NCBI GenBank assembly: GCA_003134555.1
Contig: PLBO01000082.1
Coordinates: 61,566 to 125,565 of the forward strand
Reading direction: 5' to 3'
DNA: 64,000 nt
DNA from: Actinomycetota bacterium
GTDB taxonomy: Bacteria; Actinomycetota; Acidimicrobiia; IMCC26256; PALSA-610
Part shown: positions 7,841-25,513 of the stretch, piece after piece
Numbering within the stretch: position 1 is the stretch's first letter
Layout: each line of letters starts with the position of its first letter
The notes under the pieces: generated by a model
What the model was told of the DNA's origin: nothing
Seen by the model: only the letters and a program-made list of their open reading frames with translations
The model's database searches: none
Program-made: the position numbers and the translations under genes

Positions 7841-9004
7841 TCACACCTCCTCGACAGCCGGATACACGGTACCGCTCGCTTCTCCGAAGCCGATGCGCGG
7901 CCGATCGGGCCCATCGCCACCGCACCAGCCGCGCAATGTGACGACCTCTCCGTCGGCGAGATAGTTGTCGGCGGTCGCGTCGGCGATCTGCTCGATGAGG
8001 CTGCCCCGTTCGCCCGGATTCGGACCGCTCACCGTCCCTGACGCGAACACGTCACCAGAGCGGGTCGTCGCGCCGTTGACGGTGATGTGCGCGAGCTGTT
8101 GTGCGAACGTCCAATACATCGCGGAGAAGTTGGTCTCGGCAATCGTCGCGCCGTTGCGGTCGATCTCGAGATGAAGGTCCAGTGCCCACGGCTTCGCGGC
8201 TCGAAGATACGGATCGGGTTCGGGCTCTTGCGTGGGAGCCGCGACGAGATACGGGCGCAAGGCTTCCAGCGTGACGACCCACGGGGAGATCGTCGTGGCG
8301 AAGCTCTTGGCCAGGTTCGGCCCGAGCGGCTGGTACTCGAAGCTCTGGATGTCGCGCGCCGACCAGTCGTTGCACAACGCGACGCCGAACACGTGACCGC
8401 CGGCATCGTCGGGCCGGATGTGTGTAGCGGTGGGACCGCCGACGAGGAATGCGACTTCGAGCTCGAAGTCGAGCGCGCGCGTCGGCGTGAGACGCGGTAC
8501 ACCGTCGATCGGATCGGGCACGAGACCGGAGGGGCGCGCGATGCGTGTTCCGCTCACCACGATCGTTCCGGCTCGGCCGTGGTACCCGATTGGGAGGTGT
8601 CTCCAGTTGGCCGGGAGCGGTTCTCCTTCCGGTCGGAAGATGCGTCCGAGGTTCGTTGCGTGGTGGATCGACGAATAGAAGTCGACGTAGTCGCCGACCT
8701 GGATGGGCAGCAAGACTTCGACGTCGCCCACGGCGTGCACCGCGTCGTCGCGTTCCGGGCCGGTCAAGACCTCTGCCGCGCGGGCGCGTACCTCGGCACC
8801 GCGTCCCGACTCCATCAGCGCGTTGAGCGTCGGGCGGGCGGTGAGATCCGGCGCGATCCCCGCGGCCGGCAGATCGAGCAGGTGGTCGCCGAGGCGCGTC
8901 ACGACGCGCGGTGTCCCGTGGGCGGGGCGAGCGACGCCGAACGGCAGGTTCTCGATCGGGAAGTCGCTGAGGGGTGGAACGGGGAGCCAGGTGCGCTCGG
9001 TCAC
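7841..9004 (-). CDS. fahA: Fumarylacetoacetase
   Basis: Hydrolyses fumarylacetoacetate to fumarate and acetoacetate, the last step of tyrosine degradation. The 387-residue product has a short N-terminal domain and the FAH fold. Signatures are GDYVDFYSSIHHATNLGRIFRP, DFELEVAFLVG (metal-binding Glu residues) and LCNDWSARDIQSFEYQPLGPNLAKSFATTISPWVV. The track ORF begins 150 codons earlier, within the hpd coding strand in another frame. GTG 9004, one base after the hpd stop, gives a protein of family length. One-base spacing on both sides indicates a tightly coupled operon. No maleylacetoacetate isomerase gene is present, so the cis-trans step is either encoded elsewhere or avoided. Confidence 0.95.
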   Translation of the reverse strand: MTERTWLPVPPLSDFPIENLPFGVARPAHGTPRVVTRLGDHLLDLPAAGIAPDLTARPTLNALMESGRGAEVRARAAEVLTGPERDDAVHAVGDVEVLLPIQVGDYVDFYSSIHHATNLGRIFRPEGEPLPANWRHLPIGYHGRAGTIVVSGTRIARPSGLVPDPIDGVPRLTPTRALDFELEVAFLVGGPTATHIRPDDAGGHVFGVALCNDWSARDIQSFEYQPLGPNLAKSFATTISPWVVTLEALRPYLVAAPTQEPEPDPYLRAAKPWALDLHLEIDRNGATIAETNFSAMYWTFAQQLAHITVNGATTRSGDVFASGTVSGPNPGERGSLIEQIADATADNYLADGEVVTLRGWCGGDGPDRPRIGFGEASGTVYPAVEEV

Positions 9005-9005
9005 G

Positions 9006-10142
9006 TCAGAGGTTGGCGCGGCGCGCCTGGTCGCGCTCGATCGCTTCGAACAAGGCCTTGAAGTTGCCTTCGCCGAAGCCGGTCGCGCCGCGCCGTTCGA
9101 TGATCTCGAAGAAGACGGCCGGACGGTCGGTGATCGTCTCCGTGAAGATTTGCAGCAGGTAGCCGTCGTCGTCGCGGTCGGCGAGAATGTTGGCGCGCTC
9201 CAGCGCGTCCCACGGCAGTGCGAACGCCGCCAGACGTTCCTTGGCTTCGTCGTAGTAGGTGTCGGGCACCTGCATGAAGCGCACACCGCGATCGCGCAGC
9301 GCTTGGACACTGGCGACGATGTCGTCGGTACGCAAGGCGATGTGTTGCACGCCGGGACCGTCGTAGTGATCGATGTACTCCTGGATCTGGCTCTTACGCA
9401 GCCCGTCGGCAGGTTCGTTGATCGGCATGATGATCTTCGCACCGTCCCACACAACGGTGGAGATCAGCGCGGAGTACTCGGTACGGATCTGACTTTCGTC
9501 GAAGTGCAACAGCTCGGAGAAGCCGAGCACATCGCTGTAGAAGTGCACCCAGTCGTCGAGTCGGCCCTGCTCGACATTGCCGACCACGTGATCGATGGCG
9601 CGCAGGCCGACTTCAGGCCCAACCGAAGTGTTCGGGAGGTTCTCGGCGGTGTAGCCGGGTTCGAGCTCCGAACCGCGATAGCGCGCACGGTTGACGAACG
9701 TGTGCACGGTGTCGCCGTAGGCCGCGAGCTGCGCGAGCTCGAGCTCACCCTTGTCGTCGGTCTCGATCCACGGGTCCCGCACGGAACGCGCGCCGCGGGC
9801 CACCGCGGCGGCATGGGCGGCGCGGGCGTCGTCGACGAGCCAGGCGAGGTCGTGCACGCCGTCACCGTGCTTGCGCACGTGGTCGGCGATCGGGGAATCG
9901 GCCGACAGCGCGCCGCTCACGACGAAGCGGATGTCGCCCTGTTCCAGTACGTAGCTCGCCTTGGTACGGACACCGGTTTCGGGCCCCGCGTATCCGGTGC
10001 AGCGAAATCCGAACGCCGACATGAGGAAGCCCGCAGTCGTGCGGGCGTTGCCGACCCAGAACTCAACGCAGTCCCACCCGTAGACGTGCGCGGCGGGCGG
10101 GCGGCGTTCCGCGGTCGAAGCCATGCCGTCCATCGAAGCCAT
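9006..10142 (-). CDS. hpd: 4-hydroxyphenylpyruvate dioxygenase
   Basis: Converts 4-hydroxyphenylpyruvate to homogentisate. It has two vicinal-oxygen-chelate domains. The N-terminal domain begins HVYGWDCVEFWVGNA. The C-terminal catalytic domain carries the iron ligands in LRAIDHVVGNV, GVQHIALRTDDI and FFEIIERRGATGFGEGNFKALFEAIE, the last being the classic closing helix of the enzyme. ATG 10142 gives 378 residues, the usual size in actinobacteria; ATG 10133 and 10124 are also possible and no ribosome site decides. It is the first gene of the operon, divergent from livK across about 120 bases that must contain both promoters. No tyrosine aminotransferase gene lies in the window. Confidence 0.95.
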   Translation of the reverse strand: MASMDGMASTAERRPPAAHVYGWDCVEFWVGNARTTAGFLMSAFGFRCTGYAGPETGVRTKASYVLEQGDIRFVVSGALSADSPIADHVRKHGDGVHDLAWLVDDARAAHAAAVARGARSVRDPWIETDDKGELELAQLAAYGDTVHTFVNRARYRGSELEPGYTAENLPNTSVGPEVGLRAIDHVVGNVEQGRLDDWVHFYSDVLGFSELLHFDESQIRTEYSALISTVVWDGAKIIMPINEPADGLRKSQIQEYIDHYDGPGVQHIALRTDDIVASVQALRDRGVRFMQVPDTYYDEAKERLAAFALPWDALERANILADRDDDGYLLQIFTETITDRPAVFFEIIERRGATGFGEGNFKALFEAIERDQARRANL

Positions 10143-10265
10143 ATACCCACTGTTGGTCAAGACCAAGCGACTTCCAGGGTCGGATGGAAGGTTTGGGGGA
10201 TGGCATGCGGCGGGGCCCCTCCGGCGCTATGTTCCGCGTCGCCAATCGGGACCGAGGGAGGCCAC

Positions 10266-11570
10266 ATGGCACAACGCAAGAGTTTGGGTGCGATCGCGAT
10301 CGTCGCGGTTCTCGCGCTCGCTGCGGCCGCATGCGGCAGCAGCAGCAAGAAGACGCAAACGGGATCGACGGGCACGACCACCGCTTCGCCGGGCGCGCGT
10401 GGCAACGTCAACGGCCAGCTCGTGCTGGGCGCGCTCCTACCGCAGTCCGGCGATCTCTCCGTGATCTACAAATCGCTCAACACGCCGGTGACGATGGCCG
10501 TGGCGGAGATCAACGCGGCCGGCGGCGTCAACGGTAAGCCAGTTGTGGTGAAGAGTGCCGACGACGGCACGAGTCCCACGGTGGCGTCGACCGCGCTCGA
10601 CACCTTGCTCACCGCCGACAAGGTCGACGCGATCGTAGGCCCGGCCTCGTCGGGAACCGCGCTCGGCATCATCGACAAGATCAAGACGAACGGTGTCGTC
10701 GACTGCTCGGGTTCGACCACGTCTGGTGCGCTTTCGGTCGCCGGTGGCGCCGCGGGTGGGTATTTCTTCCGCACCGCGCCTTCCGACAATCTGCAGGGTC
10801 CGGCCCTCGCTCAGCTGGTGTTGAGCGACAACAAGCACAAGGTCGCGATCCTCACGCGCAATGACTCTTACGGCACAGGTTTCGGTTCCTCGCTGTCGAA
10901 GGCACTTACCGACGGCGGCGCCGACGTGGTGGCCAACGTCGCATACGACCCGAAGTCGTCCGACTACAGGGCCGACGTTTCGAAGGTGGCCGGCAAGGGG
11001 GCCGACGCGATCGTTGTCATCGGCTTCAACGACGACGGTGGCAAGGTGCTCAAGGAGTTGATCGCCCAGAACCTCGGACCGAAGAAGGTCCAGATCTACA
11101 CCGCCGACGGCATGCAGAGCTCCAAGCTGTTCAAAGCGGTCGATCCGAGCAACCCCTCAGTCGTGCAGGGGATCAAGGGCACGGCTCCCGCCGCGGCACC
11201 GTCGGGCGTGACCAACCCCTTCATCGCCAAGTTCGCGGCGACGAAGATCGACACGATCTTCTCGTCGTACTACTACGACTGCACCAACCTCATTGCCCTC
11301 GCCGCGCAGGCGGCCGGATCCGATGATCCCGCCAAGATCAGGGACAAGATGATCGAGGTGAGCTCCGGCGGCACGAAGTGTCAGAACTTCAAGACCTGCT
11401 CCGACCTCCTGAAGGCCGGCACCGACATCGACTACGACGGCGCATCGGGCCCGGTCGACCTCACCGACAAACACGAGCCCGGCAATGGCGTGTACGACGT
11501 CTGGCAGTACGACGCCAAGGGTGGCTACGCCAACGTTCCGGGTGTTGCGCAGATCAAGATCAACGGCTGA
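10266..11570 (+). CDS. livK: ABC transporter substrate-binding lipoprotein (LivK-like)
   Basis: The extracellular binding protein of a branched-chain-type amino acid ABC transporter. ATG 10266 follows a good GGGAGG site. The track ORF of 955 residues is an artefact of an open frame running antisense through hpd and fahA. The 434-residue precursor has a lipoprotein signal peptide ending in the lipobox ALAAAAC, a low-complexity Ser/Thr linker, and a type I periplasmic-binding fold (QLVLGALLPQSGDLSVIYKSLNTPVTMAVAEINAAGGV). It converges on livF, and the rest of the transporter (livHMGF) lies just beyond. Divergence from the tyrosine operon makes aromatic amino acids a plausible ligand; that is inference. 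Confidence 0.93.
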   Translation: MAQRKSLGAIAIVAVLALAAAACGSSSKKTQTGSTGTTTASPGARGNVNGQLVLGALLPQSGDLSVIYKSLNTPVTMAVAEINAAGGVNGKPVVVKSADDGTSPTVASTALDTLLTADKVDAIVGPASSGTALGIIDKIKTNGVVDCSGSTTSGALSVAGGAAGGYFFRTAPSDNLQGPALAQLVLSDNKHKVAILTRNDSYGTGFGSSLSKALTDGGADVVANVAYDPKSSDYRADVSKVAGKGADAIVVIGFNDDGGKVLKELIAQNLGPKKVQIYTADGMQSSKLFKAVDPSNPSVVQGIKGTAPAAAPSGVTNPFIAKFAATKIDTIFSSYYYDCTNLIALAAQAAGSDDPAKIRDKMIEVSSGGTKCQNFKTCSDLLKAGTDIDYDGASGPVDLTDKHEPGNGVYDVWQYDAKGGYANVPGVAQIKING

Positions 11571-11577
11571 CCGGCAC

Positions 11578-12348
11578 TTACGCGTCTTCGGGGCCCGGGG
11601 TATCACCCCGGGCCCCGGCGCGGGCGAGCGTTCCGAGATAGAGCTGCACGACTTTGTCGTCGTCGAGCAGCTCGGCGCCGGTTCCGGTGTAGGCGTTGCG
11701 GCCTTGATCGAGTACGTAGCCGCGGTGAGCGACTTCGAGACAACGGCGAGCATTCTGCTCGACCATCAAGACCGAAACGCCGCTCTTGTTCACGCCGGCG
11801 ATGCGGTCGAAGACGTCGTCCTGCATCATCGGCGACAGGCCGGCGGACGGCTCGTCGAGCAGGAGGACCGACGGATGCATCATGAGCGCGCGGGCCATCG
11901 CCAACATCTGGCGTTCGCCGCCCGACAACGAGCCGGCGCGCTGGGGCAAGCGCTCCCCGAGCCGGGGTAGCAGACCGAGGATCTCGTCTCGCCGTTCGTG
12001 GAAGTCGTGGGGGCGGAGAAAACAACCCATTCGCAGGTTGTCGTCGACCGTCAGGGCGGGGAACACGTTGTGTAGCTGCGGCACGTAGCCGACGCCGCGT
12101 TTCACGAGCTCGTGCGGCGGACGCACCGTGATGTCGTCGGTCCGCAGGTGCACCGAGCCGCGCCGGAGGGGCACGAGCCCGAAAATTGCCTTCACCAGCG
12201 TCGACTTCCCCGCTCCGTTGGGTCCGATGATCCCGACGATCTCGCCTTCGAGCACCTCGAGGCTGCACCCGTTCAAGATGTCGACACCCGGGAGGTAGCC
12301 GGCGACGACATCGCGTGCGTCGAGCAGGACCGCGTTCCCCGCGCTCAT
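11578..12348 (-). CDS. livF: Branched-chain-type amino acid ABC transporter ATPase LivF
   Basis: One of the two cytoplasmic ATPases of the transporter. It shows Walker A GPNGAGKST, a Q-loop region, the ABC signature LSGGERQ, Walker B VLLLDEPSAGLSP and the switch His after VLMVEQNA. The start is ATG 12348, which overlaps the livG stop by four bases (ATGA); the 35 extra track residues upstream lie in livG. At 256 residues it is slightly longer than usual because of a C-terminal tail (RAGARGDTPGPEDA). That tail is encoded by the DNA that also forms the terminator hairpin. Confidence 0.94.
   Translation of the reverse strand: MSAGNAVLLDARDVVAGYLPGVDILNGCSLEVLEGEIVGIIGPNGAGKSTLVKAIFGLVPLRRGSVHLRTDDITVRPPHELVKRGVGYVPQLHNVFPALTVDDNLRMGCFLRPHDFHERRDEILGLLPRLGERLPQRAGSLSGGERQMLAMARALMMHPSVLLLDEPSAGLSPMMQDDVFDRIAGVNKSGVSVLMVEQNARRCLEVAHRGYVLDQGRNAYTGTGAELLDDDKVVQLYLGTLARAGARGDTPGPEDA
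11590..11616. terminator. Perfect 12-bp hairpin between convergent livK and livF
   Basis: GGGGCCCGGGGT, loop ATC, ACCCCGGGCCCC. The two arms are exact reverse complements with a 3-base loop, giving a very stable stem. It lies 20 bases after the livK stop and inside the last codons of livF, so it can work on both strands. There is no T-run on either side, as is common for actinobacterial terminators. Function is inferred from position and symmetry. Confidence 0.7.
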
Positions 12349-13142
12349 GTTGCTCTCGCGTGGCGTTGCCCGAGGTACGCGTCGATCACGGCCTGGTTGC
12401 TGACGACTTCGGCCGGTGTGCCGTCGGCGATGACCCGACCCTCGGCCATGCATACGACTCGATCGGAGATCGACATGACCACGTCCATGTCGTGCTCGAC
12501 GAACACGACGGTCCGACCTTCGTCGCGCAATCGCTGCACGTGATGCAGCAGCGATTGCACCAGTGCCGGGTTCACGCCTGCCATGGGTTCGTCGAGCATC
12601 ACAAGCTTCGGTTCGACCATCAGCGCGCGCGCCATCTCGAGCAGCTTGCGCTGGCCGCCCGACAACGTCGCGGCGAGATCGTTCTGTCTCGCCGACAATC
12701 CGAAGTCGTCGAGCAGGGCGAGCGCGCGCTCACGTGCTTCGCGCTCCTCCGCGCGCCAGCGGAAGCGGAACGGCGCAAGCACGAGGCGTTCGCCCGATTG
12801 ACCGGATGCGCCGAGGAGCATGTTGTCGAGAACCGTCAAGCCCGCTAACGCCTTGGTGAGCTGGAACGTTCGGACCATGCCCTGGCGCGCGACGCGATAC
12901 GCGGGCCAGCCGGAGATATCGACTCCGTCGAACTTCCAATGTCCTGCGTCTGCATGATCGAAACCCGTCAGCACGTTGAACAGTGTCGTCTTGCCCGCTC
13001 CGTTGGGTCCGATGAGCGCGGTGATCTTGTGACGCGGCACTTCGAGGTGATCGACGGAAACCGCGACCAAGCCTCCGAAGCGTCGCTCGACCGACTTCAC
13101 GACGAGGATCGGTTCCGAAGCGGCATCAGACCTATTGCTCAC
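12345..13142 (-). CDS. livG: Branched-chain-type amino acid ABC transporter ATPase LivG
   Basis: The second ATPase subunit, 265 residues. Motifs are Walker A GPNGAGKTT, signature LSGGQRKLLE, Walker B LVMLDEPMAGVNP and the H-loop VFVEHDMDVV. The C-terminal segment VIADGTPAEVVSNQAVIDAYLG is the typical LivG ending. The GTG start overlaps the end of livM by 11 bases and its stop overlaps the livF start, so the four transporter genes are translated as a coupled set. LivG pairs with LivM/LivH through the coupling helices of the permeases. Confidence 0.95.
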   Translation of the reverse strand: MSNRSDAASEPILVVKSVERRFGGLVAVSVDHLEVPRHKITALIGPNGAGKTTLFNVLTGFDHADAGHWKFDGVDISGWPAYRVARQGMVRTFQLTKALAGLTVLDNMLLGASGQSGERLVLAPFRFRWRAEEREARERALALLDDFGLSARQNDLAATLSGGQRKLLEMARALMVEPKLVMLDEPMAGVNPALVQSLLHHVQRLRDEGRTVVFVEHDMDVVMSISDRVVCMAEGRVIADGTPAEVVSNQAVIDAYLGQRHARAT

Positions 13143-14127
13143 CGAGCATCACTTCCTGGCGAGACCCGAGGAATCCTTGAGGCCGGAATATGACGAGCAG
13201 CATGATGACGAGCCCCACGAGCACGAAGCGGAACGTACCGACCTGCGTCGGATCGATCAGGTGGCCGACCCCGAGGAAGTTGTGGTCGACCGCGTGCCCG
13301 AGGAAGCTGTCGGCGCCCTCGACAAGGAACCAGAATGCGATCGCGCCCAGAATCGGACCGAAGATGCGCGCGGTACCGCCGAGGATCAGCGCCGCGAACG
13401 CATAGAAGGTGATGGCCGACTCGAAGAGGTCGGGCTGGATGAATTGCTGATCGAACACGAGCATGATCCCCGCGATGCCGCCGATCGCACCGCCGATCAA
13501 CAGCGCTTGCATCTTGTACGAGTACACGTTCTTGCCCAGCGAGCGCACCGCGTCCTCGTCCTCGCGAATTGCACGCACGACCCGTCCCCACGGGCTGTGG
13601 ACGAGCATCGCAATCAACACCGACGCGAGTGCGACGAGCGCCCACGTCACGAGCGTCACCCACAACTGACGCTGGTCGTAGGTGATCGTGCCAAATCCGT
13701 AGCGACCCCTCGCGATCGGATTGTGATCGAAGAACCAGTTCGCGAATCCGCCGATGCCCTGCGGTCCCCCGGTCACCGACTGCACCTTCGTTGAATTGAC
13801 GACGATGCGCAGGATCTCGGCTGCCGCAATGGTGACGATCGCCAGATAGTCGCCGCGCAGGCGCAGCGTCGGTATGCCGAGGAGGAGCCCGAGCAGGATC
13901 GACGCGGCGACGCCGACGAGCACCGCCCACGGCAGCCACAACCCCCAACTGTTCACGGCAATCGCGGTGCCGTAGCCGCCGACGAGCAAAAATCCCGCCT
14001 GACCGAAGTTCCACAAGCCCGCGTATCCGAACTGCACGTTCAAGCCGACGGCCGCGAGCGCGTAGACCGCAGCGTTGATGCCGAGGCCGGCGCGGAGCCC
14101 GTCGCTGAGAATTCCCGTCCAGTCCAT
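13132..14127 (-). CDS. livM: Branched-chain-type amino acid ABC transporter permease LivM
   Basis: An integral membrane subunit of 331 residues with about eight to ten helices. Characteristic family stretches are GLNVQFGYAGLWNFGQAGFLLVGGYGTA near the N-terminus, GIPTLRLRGDYLAIVTIAAAEILR and SPWGRVVRAIREDEDAVRSLGKN (the ATPase-contacting loop). The ending VGLVIMLLVIFRPQGFLGSR is also typical. I start it at ATG 14127 (MDWTGILSDG), four bases after the livH stop. The track's 55 extra N-terminal residues are a low-complexity reading of livH DNA. It forms the channel with LivH. Confidence 0.95.
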   Translation of the reverse strand: MDWTGILSDGLRAGLGINAAVYALAAVGLNVQFGYAGLWNFGQAGFLLVGGYGTAIAVNSWGLWLPWAVLVGVAASILLGLLLGIPTLRLRGDYLAIVTIAAAEILRIVVNSTKVQSVTGGPQGIGGFANWFFDHNPIARGRYGFGTITYDQRQLWVTLVTWALVALASVLIAMLVHSPWGRVVRAIREDEDAVRSLGKNVYSYKMQALLIGGAIGGIAGIMLVFDQQFIQPDLFESAITFYAFAALILGGTARIFGPILGAIAFWFLVEGADSFLGHAVDHNFLGVGHLIDPTQVGTFRFVLVGLVIMLLVIFRPQGFLGSRQEVMLGEQ

Positions 14128-14131
14128 GCCG

Positions 14132-15433
14132 TCAGCCGATCCGTTCTCGGACGCCGAGAATGCCTTGCGGACGCACGAGCAGTACGAGGATGAGGATGAC
14201 GAGCGCGATCGCGAACTGGAGATCGGACGGTAACCAGTAGGTGCCGACCTGCGATGCGACGCCGACGACCAGACCACCGGCCATTGCGCCATACGGGTTG
14301 CCGAGACCGCCCAGGACGATGGCCGCGAACATCGTGAGCAGCAGACGGAACCCCATGTTCCATTGCACGCCTTGCGATCCCACCCCCAGCATCACGCCGC
14401 CGAGTGCGGCCAGCATCGCGCCGGAGATCCATACGACGAGCGTCACCCCCGCGACGTTGATGCCCGATGCCGACGAGAGATCGCGCTCGTCGGACACGGC
14501 GCGAATCGCGGTGCCGAGGCGCGTTTGCCGCAGCATCGCGCCCACGACGAGCAGCATCACGAGGCAGATAGCCATGATGACGTAGTCGCGCACCGGCGAT
14601 TGCAGCGGTCCGATCTTGACTGGACTCGGTGCGGCGTATTCACGGTACGAGCGCGGCGCGCCCTTGAAGATCACCTGATAGATGTACCGCAGGACGAGCG
14701 CGAGCCCGATCGACACGAGCATGCGTCCGCTCGCTCCCGACCGGCGGCGCACCAGCGGCCGCCACAGACCGAGCTCGAGGCCGGCGCCGAGCACGCCGGC
14801 CGCGATCATTGCGATGATCGTGGCCAGCACGAGCGGAAGCCTGGGTCCGGAGCTCATCGTGTTCATCAACCACGCGATCAACGCGCCGAACGTCACGAGC
14901 TCGCCGTGCGCGAAATTCACGAGCCCCGTGGTGCCGTAGATCAGCGAGAGCCCGACCGAACACAACCCGACGATCAACCCGAACCGGATTCCGCTGACGA
15001 ACAGGTTGAGCAATTGATCGAGGCGCGACTGGCCGCCTGACGTTTTCGATTGCGCGGACGTCAGCGTGAATCCGGCGCTTTGCGCGAATGATCCGAACAC
15101 GCGATATTCCGCAAGCTCGGGGCGTTCGGCGCGCACACCAGAAGGCAACGTCGATACGTCCAGGGCGAGCTTGTACGTGCCCGGGCCGGGCACCCTGATC
15201 CGCCACGCACCGCGCTGGTCGGAGACCGCACGACCGACCTCGGTTGAGCCCTGGGACGCGGTGACGCGCACGCCGGGAACCGGATGACCGTCGACGGCGA
15301 GCGTGCCGCCGACGGAAGCGGATGGCGTGGTTGGCGTCGTAGTGGTGGTGGCGGCATGCGCCCGGCCCCCGCCGAGAAGCGCGCCGATGCCGGCGAGTCC
15401 GAACACGACGATCATCCGGCGTGCCTTCGGCAA
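14132..15433 (-). CDS. livH: LivH permease with N-terminal signal peptide and Ig-like (carboxypeptidase-regulatory type) domain
   Basis: The second permease of the transporter, with an unusual front end. TTG 15433 is preceded by GGGAGG at 5 bases; ATG 15415 is the alternative. Residues 1-27 (LPKARRMIVVFGLAGIGALLGGGRAHA) form a signal peptide with an AxA cleavage site. Residues about 28-38 are a Thr/Pro linker. Residues about 40-127 form a small beta-sandwich-like domain (GGTLAVDGHPVPGVRVTASQ, GRAVSDQRGAWRIRVPGPGTYKLAL) of the carboxypeptidase-regulatory or CNA-B type. The normal LivH core follows from about 145 (FGLIVGLCSVGLSLIYGTTGLVNFAHGELVTFGA to LVRPQGILG). Standard LivH is about 300 residues, so roughly 130 are added, presumably on the outside of the cell. 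Confidence 0.9.
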   Translation of the reverse strand: MPKARRMIVVFGLAGIGALLGGGRAHAATTTTTPTTPSASVGGTLAVDGHPVPGVRVTASQGSTEVGRAVSDQRGAWRIRVPGPGTYKLALDVSTLPSGVRAERPELAEYRVFGSFAQSAGFTLTSAQSKTSGGQSRLDQLLNLFVSGIRFGLIVGLCSVGLSLIYGTTGLVNFAHGELVTFGALIAWLMNTMSSGPRLPLVLATIIAMIAAGVLGAGLELGLWRPLVRRRSGASGRMLVSIGLALVLRYIYQVIFKGAPRSYREYAAPSPVKIGPLQSPVRDYVIMAICLVMLLVVGAMLRQTRLGTAIRAVSDERDLSSASGINVAGVTLVVWISGAMLAALGGVMLGVGSQGVQWNMGFRLLLTMFAAIVLGGLGNPYGAMAGGLVVGVASQVGTYWLPSDLQFAIALVILILVLLVRPQGILGVRERIG

Positions 15434-15618
15434 CGCGACCTCCCGGTGCGTGGCGACGGCGGGAGCATAGGAGCACCGGAGGCCGCGGGGGGAGACGCCG
15501 CTCGTCGTGAGCCTGTTCTTCGTCGGGTTCGCGCGGCGTGCCGGCCGGCGAACGCACGCAAGCCGACGGCTAACGTTCCGGCAGCTCAACTCAGAAGTCG
15601 TCTTCGGCGGAGGACTCG

Positions 15619-18858: not shown

Positions 18859-21432
18859 GTGTCATCCACGGCGCCCGCAACGCTGCCACCGCGGGGCCTC
18901 GCCGGTCTCGACCCGTCGTGGTCGCGACTGATGATCACACCGAAGCTCGACGGGATCGGGCGCACCTGGCACGTCCTCGACAACGGTGTGATCGACCCGG
19001 CCGTCACGCTGTTGTGTGTGCACGGCAACCCGACGTGGTCGTACCTCTGGCGAGACATGCTTGCCCGCGCCGATCCCCGGGTTCGGGTCGTCGCCGTCGA
19101 CCAGCTCGAGATGGGATTCTCCGAGCGCACCGGCATGACGCGCCGGTTGCAACAGCGCGTCGACGACCTCTGCGCGCTCACCGACCAGCTCGAGTTGAGC
19201 GGACCGATCGTCACTGTCGCCCACGACTGGGGCGGTCCTATTTCGCTCGGGTGGGCGGCGCGGCATCGCGCGCAACTCGAAGGTGTGGTCTTGACGAACA
19301 CTGCAGTGCACCAGCCCCCGGGCTCACGCGCTCCGGCACTGATCCGAATGGCTCGACTGCCGGGTGTTCTGCAACTCGTGTGCGTGCAGACGCCGGCGTT
19401 CATCCAGGCGACACTCGAGTTGTCTCGGCCGCGGCTGGCCAAACCCGTTCGAGACGCGTATCACGCGCCGTACCGGTCAGCGCAGCGGCGCGCCGGCATC
19501 GGCGCGTTCGTGCAGGACATTCCCCTCGATCAATCGCACCCCAGCGCGGAGGCGCTCGACGGGATCGTCGCCGACGTAGCCACCCTTCGGGACATCCCCG
19601 CGTTGCTGCTCTGGGGACCATCGGATCCGGTGTTCTCCGATATCTACCTTCGTGATCTCGAGGCTCGCCTTCCCCGCGCCGACGTGCACCGGTTCGTCGG
19701 AGTGAGCCACCTCGTGCCCGAAGAGGCAGACGTCGCGGGAGTAGTGCACGAGTGGGTCGCGCGGCGCGGCGCGCCGTCAACGAGCACGTCGCAATCCCTC
19801 GTGGCGCCGGTGTCACGGGCTCCGGCCTGGGCCGCGCTCGACCGGCGCGCGGGTGACGCCGATCTGGCGATGATCGAGATGACCGACCACGGCATCGGCC
19901 GGTCGATCAGCTTCGCGGCGTTGGACGCCGACGTGCGGCGTGTGGCGGCCGGCCTGGTGGAACACGGTGTGGCGCGAGGCGATCGTGTCGCGCTGCTGAT
20001 TCCACCGGGGATCGACCTCACGGTGTGCCTGTACGCCTGCTGGCGCATGGGGGCGGTGGTGGTGGTGGTCGACGCGGGTCTCGGCGCTCGTGGCATCAGT
20101 CGAGCGCTCAAGAGCGCGACGCCGCGCCACCTCATCGGAATCCCGCGCGCCTTGACTGCCGCGCGACTCCTGGGTTGGCCCGGTCGGCGAATTTCATCCG
20201 TCGCGATGCCGGCCGGCGTCGCGCGGTCGCTCGCGGTCTCGACCACCCTCGATGAGCTGCGCGCGCGGGGCGAGGGCCGGCCGGTCCCGCCGACCCCGAC
20301 CGATTCCGACCCGGCGGCGGTGATCTTCACTTCGGGTGCTACCGGCCCGGCCAAGGGCGTGTCATATCGGCACCACCAACTCCAAGCTCAACGCGATGTG
20401 CTCGCGCGCGTGTACGACATCAACGCCGACGACAGGTTCGTCGCCGCGTTCGCGCCGTTCGCGCTGTACGGACCGGCGATGGGGGTCCCGTCGGTCGTAC
20501 CGGACATGAGCGTGACCGCGCCCGGCACGCTGCGCGCGGTCGCGCTGGCCGAGGCGGCCGAAGCAATCGGTGCGTCGCTCGTGTTCGCGTCGCCCGCCGC
20601 CTTGGCCAACGTGATCGCCACCGCGGGTGATCTCACACCGCGCCATCGTGAAGCGCTGGCCAAGGTACGGCTGCTCTTGTCGGCCGGCGCGCCGGTGCCG
20701 AGCTCGGTCCTCCGTGCTGTGGCGGAGATCATGCCGAACGCCGAGGCTCACACGCCCTACGGCATGACCGAGGTGCTACCCGTTTCCGACATCACGCCGG
20801 CCGGGATCGAGGCCGCGGGCGCGGGCAACGGCGTCTGTGTCGGCCGCCCCCTCGCCGAGGTGTCGGTCGCGATCAGTCCGCTCGACGTCGATGGTCATGC
20901 CACCGGCGAGTTGACCACGCACGCGGATGCCACGGGCGAAGTGTGCGTCCAGGCCGCGCATGTGAAAGACGGTTACGACAAGCTCTGGGTCGTCCAGCAC
21001 GACAGCGCGCAGCCGCCGTACTGGCACCGGAGCGGCGATGTCGGCCACCTCGACGATCAGGGTCGGCTGTGGATCGAAGGGCGGATGATCCACATCATCA
21101 CGACCGCGAACGGGCCCGTCACGCCAGTAGGGATCGAGCAAGCCGTCGAGTCCATGGCCGAGGTCGGCCACGCCGCGTTGGTCGGGGTGGGGCCCGCCGG
21201 AACGCAGCAGCTTGTCGTGGTAGTCGTTCCCATCGAGCGCCGAAGGCGGCCCGACCTTGCACCCGTCGCGCTGGCGGAACGCGTCCGAGCAGTCGCGGGC
21301 GTCGACATCGCGGCCGTCTTCGTCGTTCCCGCGTTGCCGGTGGACAAGCGGCACAACTCGAAGATCGACCGGAGCCGGGTCGCCAAATGGGCGAGCGCGG
21401 TACTTGCCGGCGGTCGGATGCGCGCACTGTGA
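18859..21432 (+). CDS. oleBC: OleB-OleC fusion: beta-lactone decarboxylase plus beta-lactone synthetase
   Basis: Two enzymes of head-to-head hydrocarbon synthesis in one 857-residue chain. Residues about 20-303 are an alpha/beta hydrolase of the haloalkane-dehalogenase type, as in OleB. They include HGNPTWSYLW (55-64), nucleophile Asp123 with the adjacent Trp in VAHDWGG, a likely acid in WGPSDPVF and His284 in GVSHLVPEE. Residues about 345-857 are an AMP-forming synthetase close to OleC, with P-loop FTSGATGPAKGV, TPYGMTEVLPVSDI, GRMIHIITTANGPVTP and PVDKRHNSKIDR. OleC makes a beta-lactone from a 2-alkyl-3-hydroxyacid using ATP, and OleB decarboxylates it to a cis-olefin. Fused OleBC is known from actinobacteria such as Micrococcus. 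The track's 345 upstream residues are antisense readings. Confidence 0.88.
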   Translation: MSSTAPATLPPRGLAGLDPSWSRLMITPKLDGIGRTWHVLDNGVIDPAVTLLCVHGNPTWSYLWRDMLARADPRVRVVAVDQLEMGFSERTGMTRRLQQRVDDLCALTDQLELSGPIVTVAHDWGGPISLGWAARHRAQLEGVVLTNTAVHQPPGSRAPALIRMARLPGVLQLVCVQTPAFIQATLELSRPRLAKPVRDAYHAPYRSAQRRAGIGAFVQDIPLDQSHPSAEALDGIVADVATLRDIPALLLWGPSDPVFSDIYLRDLEARLPRADVHRFVGVSHLVPEEADVAGVVHEWVARRGAPSTSTSQSLVAPVSRAPAWAALDRRAGDADLAMIEMTDHGIGRSISFAALDADVRRVAAGLVEHGVARGDRVALLIPPGIDLTVCLYACWRMGAVVVVVDAGLGARGISRALKSATPRHLIGIPRALTAARLLGWPGRRISSVAMPAGVARSLAVSTTLDELRARGEGRPVPPTPTDSDPAAVIFTSGATGPAKGVSYRHHQLQAQRDVLARVYDINADDRFVAAFAPFALYGPAMGVPSVVPDMSVTAPGTLRAVALAEAAEAIGASLVFASPAALANVIATAGDLTPRHREALAKVRLLLSAGAPVPSSVLRAVAEIMPNAEAHTPYGMTEVLPVSDITPAGIEAAGAGNGVCVGRPLAEVSVAISPLDVDGHATGELTTHADATGEVCVQAAHVKDGYDKLWVVQHDSAQPPYWHRSGDVGHLDDQGRLWIEGRMIHIITTANGPVTPVGIEQAVESMAEVGHAALVGVGPAGTQQLVVVVVPIERRRRPDLAPVALAERVRAVAGVDIAAVFVVPALPVDKRHNSKIDRSRVAKWASAVLAGGRMRAL

Positions 21433-22406
21433 GGGTCCTCGTCACCGGCGCGACGAGCTTGCTCGGCGGAGCGGTCGCACAGCGACTGCAAGCCCGGGGT
21501 GACCACGTGACGGTGTTCCAGCGCCGACCGAGCGGGTTGGGGTTTCGCGAAGTGCTCGGCGACGTCGCCGATCGGTCGGCCGTCGACGCCGCACTTGCCG
21601 GAGTCGACGTGGCCATCCACGCGGCCGCCAGAGTCTCGGTCGTCGGACCGTGGTCGGCGTTCGCGGAAACCAATATCACCGGCACTACGAACATGCTCGA
21701 CGCGGCTCGAACCGCCGGAGTCACTCGATTCGTGTACGTCTCCTCGCCGTCGGTTGCCAATGCCGGCAAGTCGCTCGTGGGCGCTCCGGCCGGGCCGGCC
21801 GATCCCGACTCGGCGCGGGACAACTACTCCCGGAGCAAGGCGTCCGCCGAACTGTTGGCGCTCGCCGCCGCCACGAGTGGTTTCTCAGTTGTTGCGGTGC
21901 GGCCACATCTCGTGTGGGGTCCGGGTGACACTCAACTCGTCGGTCGCATAGTCAGTCGGGCTCGCGAGGGCCGGCTGGCCGTGATCGGTTCCGGTGCGGC
22001 ATTGATCGACACGACGTACATCGACAACGCGGCCGATGCGATCGTCGCGGCGGCGGATCGTGCCGGCGAGTTGAGCGGGCGCGCCCTCGTGGTGTCGAAC
22101 GGGCAACCGAGGCCGGTGCGCGAGTTGCTGAACCGGATCGCGTTGGCTGCCGGACTCGAGCCTCCTCGGCTCCGGGTACCGGTAGGGGTTGCCCGCGCCG
22201 CCGGAGCCGTCCTCGAGCGCGCATGGGCAGGTCTTCGACGCGAAGACGATCCGCCGATCACCAGGTTCCTCGCCGAACAGCTCTCGACTGCGCATTGGTT
22301 CGACCAGCGCGAAACCCGCGAGGCGCTCGGGTGGCAACCCTCGGTGGATCTCGATGAAGGTTTCGCCCGTCTGGAGTCGTGGTTCCTAGCCCGTCGGAAC
22401 CGATGA
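21429..22406 (+). CDS. oleD: OleD-like NAD(P)-dependent 2-alkyl-3-ketoacid reductase
   Basis: An extended short-chain dehydrogenase of 325 residues. It has the nucleotide-binding VLVTGATSLLGGAVAQRL, the active-site NYSRSKASAE (YxxxK) preceded by YVSSPSVA, and HLVWGPGDTQLV. OleD reduces the 2-alkyl-3-ketoacid made by OleA to the hydroxyacid that OleC turns into a beta-lactone. GTG 21429 overlaps the oleBC stop by four bases (GTGA), so the two are translationally coupled. The track ORF runs back into oleBC in another frame. Its last 21 bases overlap the convergent acyl carrier protein gene. Without the neighbouring oleBC it would only be called an NAD-dependent epimerase/dehydratase family protein. 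Confidence 0.87.
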   Translation: MRVLVTGATSLLGGAVAQRLQARGDHVTVFQRRPSGLGFREVLGDVADRSAVDAALAGVDVAIHAAARVSVVGPWSAFAETNITGTTNMLDAARTAGVTRFVYVSSPSVANAGKSLVGAPAGPADPDSARDNYSRSKASAELLALAAATSGFSVVAVRPHLVWGPGDTQLVGRIVSRAREGRLAVIGSGAALIDTTYIDNAADAIVAAADRAGELSGRALVVSNGQPRPVRELLNRIALAAGLEPPRLRVPVGVARAAGAVLERAWAGLRREDDPPITRFLAEQLSTAHWFDQRETREALGWQPSVDLDEGFARLESWFLARRNR

Positions 22407-22673
22407 GCGCACGAAGGCGGTCAGGTCTGCGACCGTTTCGAGCCACGGCAGCGTGGGCGGGTCGGTCACATCGTCGACCGAGAGGCCGAGGTCGTCGAGG
22501 ATCTGCTCGCGAACGCTGAGGAGTGCCTCGATCAGGGACAAAGAGTCGAGGCCGACGTCGCTGAGCAACGCGTCGTCGCGGAAGACGGCAATCGGCTCGC
22601 CGGTGACGGCGGCGAGCTCGGCTCGGAGCAGCGCGGCGATCGGATCGGCATCGGCATCGGCGGCGGAGGTCAT
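22386..22673 (-). CDS. Acyl carrier protein
   Basis: A 95-residue stand-alone carrier protein. The phosphopantetheine attachment Ser is in DVGLDSLSLIEALLSVREQI, followed by an acidic helix as in other ACPs. ATG 22673 overlaps the fatty-acyl-AMP ligase stop by four bases (ATGA), so ligase and carrier are made together. FAALs normally pass their acyl-adenylate to a carrier, so this ACP is the likely acceptor. The gene is invisible in the track because it was swallowed by a longer ORF in the same frame. It is convergent with oleD. Confidence 0.9.
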   Translation of the reverse strand: MTSAADADADPIAALLRAELAAVTGEPIAVFRDDALLSDVGLDSLSLIEALLSVREQILDDLGLSVDDVTDPPTLPWLETVADLTAFVRSSVPTG

Positions 22674-24304
22674 CCGAAGTTCATCCTTGCCAGCATGCCG
22701 TCGTCGGTGGCGAGCGATCTGCTGATCGCGAGGCGGCGGAGCTTCCCGCTCGGGGTTTTCGGCAACGACCCGCGCGGCACGAACGCGACGGTGGCAAGCG
22801 AGCAGCCCGTCTGACTCGCGACCGCCGTACGGATGCCGCGGCACGCCGTCTCGAGCTCCGTCGTCGACATGTGCTTGCTCGGTTCGACAACGATGGCAAG
22901 ACCGCCGTCGGGCGCCGCGACCGCAGCGATGCACCCTTGACGGATGGACCCGTGCTGCACGGCGGTCTCGATGTCGTCCGGATACACGTTGCGGCCGGCG
23001 ACGACGATGGCCTCGTCGCCGCGGCCGACGACGAACAGCTCGCCGTCGCGCATCAACCCGATGTCGCCGGTGACGAAGTAGCCGTCGTCTGTGAGGCACA
23101 GCTCCGCGCCGAGGTACCGAGAGAGAAGTGAAGCGCTGCGAAACTCGATCGGCCCGACGGGCCCGTCGCTCGGCGCGATCCGCACGTCGGTTCCGGCGAA
23201 CGGGGAGCCGGTGGAGACGAGCGCCGCCGCGCCGCCCGGCCCGTCGCCGTCAGCCGGCCGCGGGATCGAGCGCCACGGCTCGTGGGGACGCACCATCGTG
23301 ACCGCGAGCGTCGCTTCGGCCAACCCGTATCCCGGGCAGAACGCCAACGGGCGAAAACCCGTCGGCACGAACGCTTCTGTGAACCGCTCGAGCGTGTCGG
23401 CTCGGACCGCTTCCGAACCGACGATGATCGCTCGCAGCCGCGACAGGTCGAGCGATCCGATGCGGCGGCTCGCGCGGACCGCCAGATCCAACGCGAAGTT
23501 CGGGGCGACGGTGATGGTCGACCCCGTCGCGGAGCAGGTCCGCAGCCACGACCGCGGGTTGGCCATGAACGTCTCGGGCTTCATGAGCGTGAGTCGGTGA
23601 TCACCGAATTCGTGGGAACCCGCAGCCAGCGGCGCCAGGAGCTGTCCGATCAGACCCATGTCGTGCGACAGCGGAAGCCATGAGCACGAAGCGTCACCGG
23701 CTACGGGCTCGAGCGCCGCCACGATTGCGGTGACGTTCGCGCCGACCGCGTCGAGGGTCAAGAAGATGCCCTTCGGGGTTCCGATGCTGCCCGAGGTGAA
23801 CTGCACCAGTGCGCCTTCGCCGCTCAACGAGGACGGAGGACCACCGGAGAGTGTCTCGTCGAACGTGTGTACCGCGAGCGGTGCATCATCGAGCAACGAC
23901 GCCTGAGCCGCGTCCAACAAGAGCATCCGCGCCCCTGCGGCCGCGCAGAACCGCGTGAGTTGGTCGGCATAGACCTGCGGCGACATCCCGCGCGCCGGCA
24001 ACGGGAGTGACGCAACGGCGCAACCGGCGCGCCAGGCTCCGAACAGCGCGGTGACACAGGAGCGGGTGTTCGTGAGTACCGCCGCGATGGTGCCGCCCGC
24101 TCCCACCTTCGTGGCCATCCATCGGGCGGCGCCCTCCGCCGAGTCCCACAGCGCGCCGATCGCGGTCGGCTCCGGCTCGTCGCCGACGAAGTGCACGGTC
24201 CCGTTGCCGGCCGCGCTGTCGTCCAACAGGTCGAGCATCGAGATCGCGTGGGCGCGGCCGCGGGCGGTATCCGGACCGGTTGCGGTGGCCAGTTCGGCTG
24301 TCAT
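22670..24304 (-). CDS. Fatty-acyl-AMP ligase (FAAL)
   Basis: Activates a free fatty acid as acyl-AMP for transfer to an acyl carrier protein. The 544 residues carry ANL-superfamily motifs in the FAAL form: QFTSGSIGTPKGIFLT, SWLPLSHDMGLIGQLLAPL, VAPNFALDLAVR, FCPGYGLAEATLAVTMV, and the catalytic Lys loop PKTPSGKLRRLAISR. The HDMGLIG and YGLAEATL segments separate FAALs from ordinary acyl-CoA ligases. Whether the FAAL-specific insertion is present needs an alignment. It lies 10 bases after the OleA-like gene and overlaps the ACP gene, forming oleA-faal-acp. This suggests chains come from free fatty acids rather than from acyl-CoA. Confidence 0.88.
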   Translation of the reverse strand: MTAELATATGPDTARGRAHAISMLDLLDDSAAGNGTVHFVGDEPEPTAIGALWDSAEGAARWMATKVGAGGTIAAVLTNTRSCVTALFGAWRAGCAVASLPLPARGMSPQVYADQLTRFCAAAGARMLLLDAAQASLLDDAPLAVHTFDETLSGGPPSSLSGEGALVQFTSGSIGTPKGIFLTLDAVGANVTAIVAALEPVAGDASCSWLPLSHDMGLIGQLLAPLAAGSHEFGDHRLTLMKPETFMANPRSWLRTCSATGSTITVAPNFALDLAVRASRRIGSLDLSRLRAIIVGSEAVRADTLERFTEAFVPTGFRPLAFCPGYGLAEATLAVTMVRPHEPWRSIPRPADGDGPGGAAALVSTGSPFAGTDVRIAPSDGPVGPIEFRSASLLSRYLGAELCLTDDGYFVTGDIGLMRDGELFVVGRGDEAIVVAGRNVYPDDIETAVQHGSIRQGCIAAVAAPDGGLAIVVEPSKHMSTTELETACRGIRTAVASQTGCSLATVAFVPRGSLPKTPSGKLRRLAISRSLATDDGMLARMNFG

Positions 24305-24314
24305 CGTTCCCCGT

Positions 24315-25352
24315 TCAAAGAACCAGCGGGATCACTGCCGCGCTGAATCCAGCCGCTCCTCCGACGAGGAGAACCTTGTCGCCGGCTGCCGCACGCCCTT
24401 CTTCGATGGCGAGGTCGAGCGCGAACGGGATGCTTGCGGCCGCGGTGTTGCCGAACCGGTCGAGCGTCACGACGCAGCGGTCGAGGGGATATCTCAGGAG
24501 CGACGACACACGTTCGATGACCGACCTCGAGACCTGGTGGGGAACGACGAGGGCAACGTCGTCGAGCGCCCAGTCCAGCTTCATGAGCACGTCGGTCACC
24601 AGCGCGGGGATGCGAGCGACGGCGAGTTGCTGCAATTTCATGCTGCGGCACTCGAAGAACATCCGGTCGGGTGCCGCGCCGTAGCGGGAGCCGCCCGCGA
24701 GCACCGTCGAGAGCTCCCAATGGCGACCGTCCGACTCGAACGCGCCGCGCATGACGCCGCGTTCCGGAGCCGCACTCGCCTCGAGGACGCAAGCCGCGCC
24801 GGCATCTCCCAACGTGAGTGCCGCCAGACGCTGGGGCAGATCCTCGGAACCGTCGATGTCCCACTTGATGAACGGCAGGAGGCGCTCGCCGGCCGCGACG
24901 ACCACTCGTGGCGCGCGGCCGGTCTCGATGAAGGCCTGCGCCACGTCGAGCCCGTTGAGGAAGCTGTTGCACGCGTTCTTCACGTCCATCACGGCGGCGC
25001 GTTCACAACCCAGCGCGATCTGCAGCATGTTGGCTGTAGCGGGCTCCGCGACGTCGTGCGATGCCGACGCGAAGATCAGGAGATCGACGTCGCGGGGCTC
25101 GATTCCCGCGCTCGCCATGGCTTTCTCCGCGGCGCGCGCAGCGAGGTCGGATGAGCACACACCGTCGGACGCGTAGCGGCGCTCGACGACACCGGTAGCG
25201 AGACGGATGATGCCCTTCGGGATTCGCCACCCGCCGCTGCACTCGTTGACGCGCGTCTCGACCATGTCCGAGGTCCACACGTCGTCGGGCTCGTAGCGTC
25301 CTGTCCCGGTGATGAGGGCTCGGATACGAGACCCATTCTCGTTCTGAGTCAT
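24315..25352 (-). CDS. oleA: OleA-like thiolase-fold condensing enzyme (KAS III family)
   Basis: A 345-residue KAS III-type enzyme with catalytic Cys128 (VKNACNSFLNG), His272 (VVPHQVSR) and Asn302 (RFGNTAAASIP). Like OleA it has a Glu in an EPxTA motif (Glu103), about 25 residues before the Cys. In Xanthomonas OleA the catalytic base Glu117 occupies the equivalent place. The segment LPQRLAALTLGDAGAACVLEAS also resembles OleA. OleA condenses two fatty-acyl thioesters to a 2-alkyl-3-ketoacid. Use of acyl-ACP from the adjacent FAAL/ACP pair, rather than acyl-CoA, is inference. ATG 25352 is chosen over GTG 25376. It starts the oleA-faal-acp operon. A KAS III priming another lipid pathway is the alternative. 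Confidence 0.78.
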   Translation of the reverse strand: MTQNENGSRIRALITGTGRYEPDDVWTSDMVETRVNECSGGWRIPKGIIRLATGVVERRYASDGVCSSDLAARAAEKAMASAGIEPRDVDLLIFASASHDVAEPATANMLQIALGCERAAVMDVKNACNSFLNGLDVAQAFIETGRAPRVVVAAGERLLPFIKWDIDGSEDLPQRLAALTLGDAGAACVLEASAAPERGVMRGAFESDGRHWELSTVLAGGSRYGAAPDRMFFECRSMKLQQLAVARIPALVTDVLMKLDWALDDVALVVPHQVSRSVIERVSSLLRYPLDRCVVTLDRFGNTAAASIPFALDLAIEEGRAAAGDKVLLVGGAAGFSAAVIPLVL

Positions 25353-25513
25353 TGTTCGGCGTACCCCGCTCCACACGTCGTCGCGCGGATCTGCATTGAC
25401 GACGCTGCCACTTCAGGACCCCGTGCAGGTCCCGGAGACCCCGAGTTTCAAATGCCCGATTCCGGCTCCTGGCGGCAGACTATGCCCGAGCACAGGACCA
25501 ACTCAACTGACGA

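Follow-up and report, generated by a model that had tools for sequence, protein, structure and literature searches.

In the window, that is, the whole stretch of 64,000 nucleotides from an Actinomycetota bacterium that was analyzed, the permease gene livH belongs to an old, Actinomycetota-wide orthologous family in which a sandwich domain is fused to the N-terminus of LivH, and the fusion can be explained neither as a local peculiarity nor by a wrongly assigned start codon. The computation supports the open frame of livH, the selection acting on it, the fold class and conservation of the additional domain, the placement of the fused proteins in a single clade and the operon context. We have high confidence that a signal peptide, a linker, a sandwich domain, a tether and a permease core are combined in one protein.

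Gene structure of livH and its operon

The livH gene is a single open frame of 433 codons on the minus strand, which runs from a TTG start at position 15433 to the stop at position 14132 (14132..15433) and encodes 433 amino acids. A GGGAGG Shine-Dalgarno sequence is located 5 nt upstream of the TTG codon (15439..15444, minus strand), and a TATGCT hexamer (15464..15469, minus strand) may represent a −10-like promoter element. We compared the gene and its upstream region to those of an orthologue with 87% identity (L048), in which the TTG start is kept, as is the block with the hexamer, but not an ATG codon at residue 7. The dN/dS values between the two genes were 0.18 for the N-terminal domain, 0.12 for the core, 0.35 for the signal peptide and 0.41 for the juxtamembrane stretch, and the substitutions in the domain and the core pile up at third codon positions.

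These data make it very improbable that the extension is an artefact of a real start near residue 140, with the upstream frame untranslated: a TTG codon is present at residue 141, but the sequence before it contains no Shine-Dalgarno motif, and the upstream codons, which would be unconstrained if translation began there, are under constraint and encode an in-frame signal peptide and an intact domain in about 50 homologues. Such a start, which the original prediction had named as the case that would refute it and leave a standard LivH, is thus contradicted, as far as sequence can tell, and the uninterrupted frame of that prediction, with a signal peptide, a Thr/Pro linker and a sandwich ahead of the LivH core, is confirmed by the open codons, the purifying selection and the layout shared with the homologues.

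The predicted signal peptide covers residues 1–27 (15353..15433, minus strand, as for all segments of livH), read by eye as MPKARRMIVVFGLAGIGALLGGGRAHA followed by A, with the putative cleavage site between AHA and A. As assessed by simple rules or by eye, an equivalent hydrophobic segment with an A-x-A-like site precedes the domain in all intact fused members. The Thr/Pro linker at residues 28–40 (15314..15352) is variable among relatives and is followed by the beta-sandwich at residues 41–126 (15056..15313) and a juxtamembrane tether at residues 127–140 (15014..15055), a region modeled with low confidence. This tether of 14 residues is short in most relatives as well (median 9 residues, mostly 7–13, range 6–48). 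The N-terminus of the permease core (residues 141–433, 14135..15013) is predicted from hydropathy and charge to be located outside (N-out), so that a signal peptide makes sense and the sandwich would be extracytoplasmic. We infer that the signal peptide is cleaved and that the domain is retained on the permease.

The core matches the BPD_transp_2 family (PF02653) at residues 146–418 with 146 bits, well above the cut-off of 26.8, while the scores for the E. coli-type LivH equivalog NF008011 (95 bits, cut-off 379) and for UrtB TIGR03409 (140 bits, equivalog cut-off 250) fall below the thresholds. PDB sequence searches with the whole protein and with a core profile gave no matches, and a Foldseek search with the full-length model gave weak matches to metal importers, for the core only. 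The gene is located in an operon with livM (13132..14127, minus; PF02653, 178 bits), livG (12345..13142, minus; ABC_tran and BCA_ABC_TP_C) and livF (11578..12348, minus; ABC_tran), next to livK (10266..11570, plus), which is convergent with livF and encodes a Peripla_BP_6 substrate-binding protein (162 bits) with a lipobox, LAAAAC followed by G, recognized by eye. This is the gene set expected for a LivH-type permease, and from its sequence we identify the protein as the LivH subunit in a family of Liv-type ABC importers of the Actinomycetota. The extra domain is found on LivH only; LivM has no extension.

Elsewhere in the window (18931–22406 and 22670–25376), a fusion of a hydrolase and an AMP ligase, with matches to models of olefin beta-lactone synthetase, is accompanied by a KAS III protein, another AMP ligase and an NAD-dependent epimerase. 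This set has the appearance of an olefin cluster of the OleABCD type in which OleB and OleC are fused. Beside livK, adjoining fumarylacetoacetase-like (FAH) and 4-hydroxyphenylpyruvate dioxygenase-like (HPPD) genes, identified by eye (7841–10166, minus), suggest tyrosine catabolism. HPPD, FAH and P450 neighbours were not found near livK in the relatives examined, and these genes are thus uninformative about the substrate of the importer.

Distribution and ancestry of the fusion

A search of 61 related genomes recovered a livH orthologue in 16, most of which match over the N-terminal domain, with 41–87% identity, whereas other LivH paralogues were matched mainly in the core, at about 30% identity. 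With a profile of the N-terminal domain and the first helices, the complete layout of signal peptide, domain and core was identified in 53 of 397 genomes, all from the Actinomycetota, including Arthrobacter sp. StoSoilB13 and Nonomuraea gerenzanensis; two further matches, broken by contig ends, are not counted among the 53. The original prediction had contrasted the protein with standard LivH and proposed a search for its architecture: the fusion is real, but this distribution, together with UrtB proteins that also have a secreted N-terminal extension, shows that it is not unique. The apparent N-terminal domain in a match on a Sinorhizobium plasmid was rejected for the one protein inspected, the annotated CDS of which (290 aa) begins at the core; a record from Variovorax came without annotation. 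Nothing relevant to the architecture or to the UrtB domain was found in the open-access literature, a search that could have overlooked papers behind subscriptions and entries in domain databases, and the fused form is apparently a previously undescribed variant of a known transporter.

In a tree of the permease core, all fused members group together with one domain-less orthologue in a single clade with 100/100 support, in a bootstrap analysis that was not fully settled; the basal branching order of this clade is collapsed into a polytomy, and UrtB forms a separate branch. In five of 61 genomes of one genus (7.7–10.7 Mb), the core of the orthologue begins no more than about 20 residues after the signal peptide, and no remnants of the domain were found upstream of the core in these five proteins. 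Transport does therefore not always need the domain, the absence of which may represent either a loss or an ancestral stage.

The genes livH, livM, livG and livF are collinear in nearly all loci, and livK is convergent past livF in 43 fused loci, with L099, L101 and L136 as exceptions. Three outgroup loci (L126–L128) have the same convergent layout with neither the signal peptide nor the domain, which argues that the fusion was probably acquired by an already existing transporter. Two fused liv operons are arranged head to head in the same genome at L105. Frame breaks in several liv genes at L093, L094 and L084 (genomes G030 and G006) are probably sequencing errors in the assemblies.

Fold and possible roles of the sandwich domain

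The domain of about 85 residues is classified as a prealbumin/CNA-B-like sandwich. The Pfam profile CarboxypepD_reg (PF13620) matches residues 48–90 with 26–30 bits, slightly below the gathering cut-off of 32.3, and also matches all 14 relatives tested (best E-value 2e-10). The AlphaFold model of 114 residues, built on two sequences, is a seven-strand sandwich with a mean pLDDT of 71.8, and of 80–89 over about residues 11–70 of the model. The best Foldseek matches to this model include the CNA-B-type and pilin domains of SdrD (B domain), UafA and GBS52 (probability 1.0, TMq 0.58–0.66, E-value 1.6e-3 at best), consistent with a profile match to SdrD, so that the domain has the prealbumin-like fold by which CNA-B domains are recognized. 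The fold class of the original prediction, a carboxypeptidase-regulatory/CNA-B-like sandwich for which structure prediction had been proposed as a check, was thus right. A sandwich of the same type (48% identity over 64 residues) is present in an unrelated zinc-ribbon protein with a single membrane span (L125:6693–8000), and this occurrence suggests that the sandwich may be a mobile surface module.

The mechanism that we favour, at slightly less than an even chance, is that of an accessory domain at the transporter mouth that helps the LivK lipoprotein; this role is ranked first, with a partner-free structural role as a close second. The cleavable signal peptide would export the N-terminus of LivH, and the sandwich would stay joined to helix 1 of the N-out permease via the short tether. 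One accessory domain per transporter would then be placed at the outer mouth, beside the docking face for LivK, where it would help the lipoprotein to meet the transporter, to stay there or to adopt a productive orientation, as an aid to transport and not as an essential part. The selection, the signal peptide, the single clade, the operon, the tether, the N-out topology and the placement on LivH only all point to this role, and the adhesin- or pilin-like fold is counted in its favour. A functional precedent is the P2 loop of MalF, which according to the title of Daus et al. (2009), as cited in PMC3328499, interacts with MalE during the whole catalytic cycle.

Against an aid to LivK, no co-variation of the domain and LivK beyond shared history was detected in a partial Mantel test (domain versus LivK distances given the other components, r = −0.02, p = 0.64), a test on 35 loci with limited power and with a null result that is compatible with docking via variable or backbone contacts; for the core versus LivK distances in the same loci, r was 0.20 (p = 0.003). 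The absence of a clear conserved partner-binding patch in the domain alignment, the variable charge, the five domain-less genomes and the model built on two sequences also count against it. Docking to LivK or the cell wall, as the original prediction had suggested, is thus unproven; the LivK part stays plausible because livH and livK are so strongly associated at the operon level, while the test result, the tether of mostly 7–13 residues and the domain-less orthologues weaken the idea.

A possible alternative, to which we give around a third of our confidence, is a spacer or a folding or stability module that has no partner and shields the permease mouth or stabilizes LivH at the outer surface. 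Conservation is limited to fold-determining residues, mostly glycine, proline and hydrophobic positions, the domain diverges faster than the core (mean distance 1.40 versus 0.75), its net charge ranges from −23 to +3 among members, one lineage lacks it and one LivH (L091 in genome G013) has two tandem copies, all of which fit such a spacer, but the domain is kept under purifying selection in about 50 lineages and the sister transporters at L126–L128 manage without it. It is unlikely that the domain anchors the importer by binding to the cell wall or to some other component of the envelope: the fold resembles B domains of wall proteins and pilin domains and the organism belongs to the Actinomycetota, but with its short tether to the first helix the domain could not extend far into the wall, the domain alignment showed no conserved surface of basic or aromatic residues, and neither LPXTG nor a known wall-binding domain was found in the protein by the Pfam search. 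The short tether instead favours a domain kept at the transporter mouth, a position that would also suit the sensing of an extracellular ligand or stress that gates the transporter, but no conserved pocket-like polar site was seen in the alignment, and this role is about as unlikely.

Taking the aid to LivK one step further, we tentatively propose that one family of Liv importers, spread across the phylum, gained a permease-tethered sandwich that captures or orients LivK, with one genus as a natural domain-less control. If true, this would be a second MalF-P2-like solution, made by N-terminal fusion. Liv importers make up a large class of transporters. A conserved outer domain on one permease subunit, with natural orthologues that lack it, offers direct access, in harmless laboratory actinobacteria such as Arthrobacter, to the question of how domains carried by permeases contribute to the docking of binding proteins.

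Comparison with known transporters and domains

The protein shares its core and its operon partners LivM, LivG, LivF and LivK with LivH permeases of the BPD_transp_2 family; to our knowledge, E. coli-type LivH has neither a signal peptide nor an external domain. The domain is similar to CNA-B and SdrD B domains and appears similar to CarboxypepD_reg domains in fold and sequence profile, but the conserved columns across 49 domains include no isopeptide triad (Lys-Asn with Glu or Asp), and it sits on an importer and not on an adhesin or pilin. Some UrtB proteins from this superfamily, as on plasmids of Klebsiella quasipneumoniae (WP_015958384.1, 524 aa), Azospirillum and Sinorhizobium, likewise have a signal peptide and a large secreted N-terminal region before the same permease core, but their extension of about 220 residues is apparently helical, as judged by eye, unlike the sandwich of LivH; another Klebsiella UrtB (308 aa) has no extension. 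The P2 loop of MalF resembles the LivH domain as a permease-borne outer domain at the face of the binding protein, but it is inserted as a loop into a permease of another family and is not an N-terminal fusion with a signal peptide.
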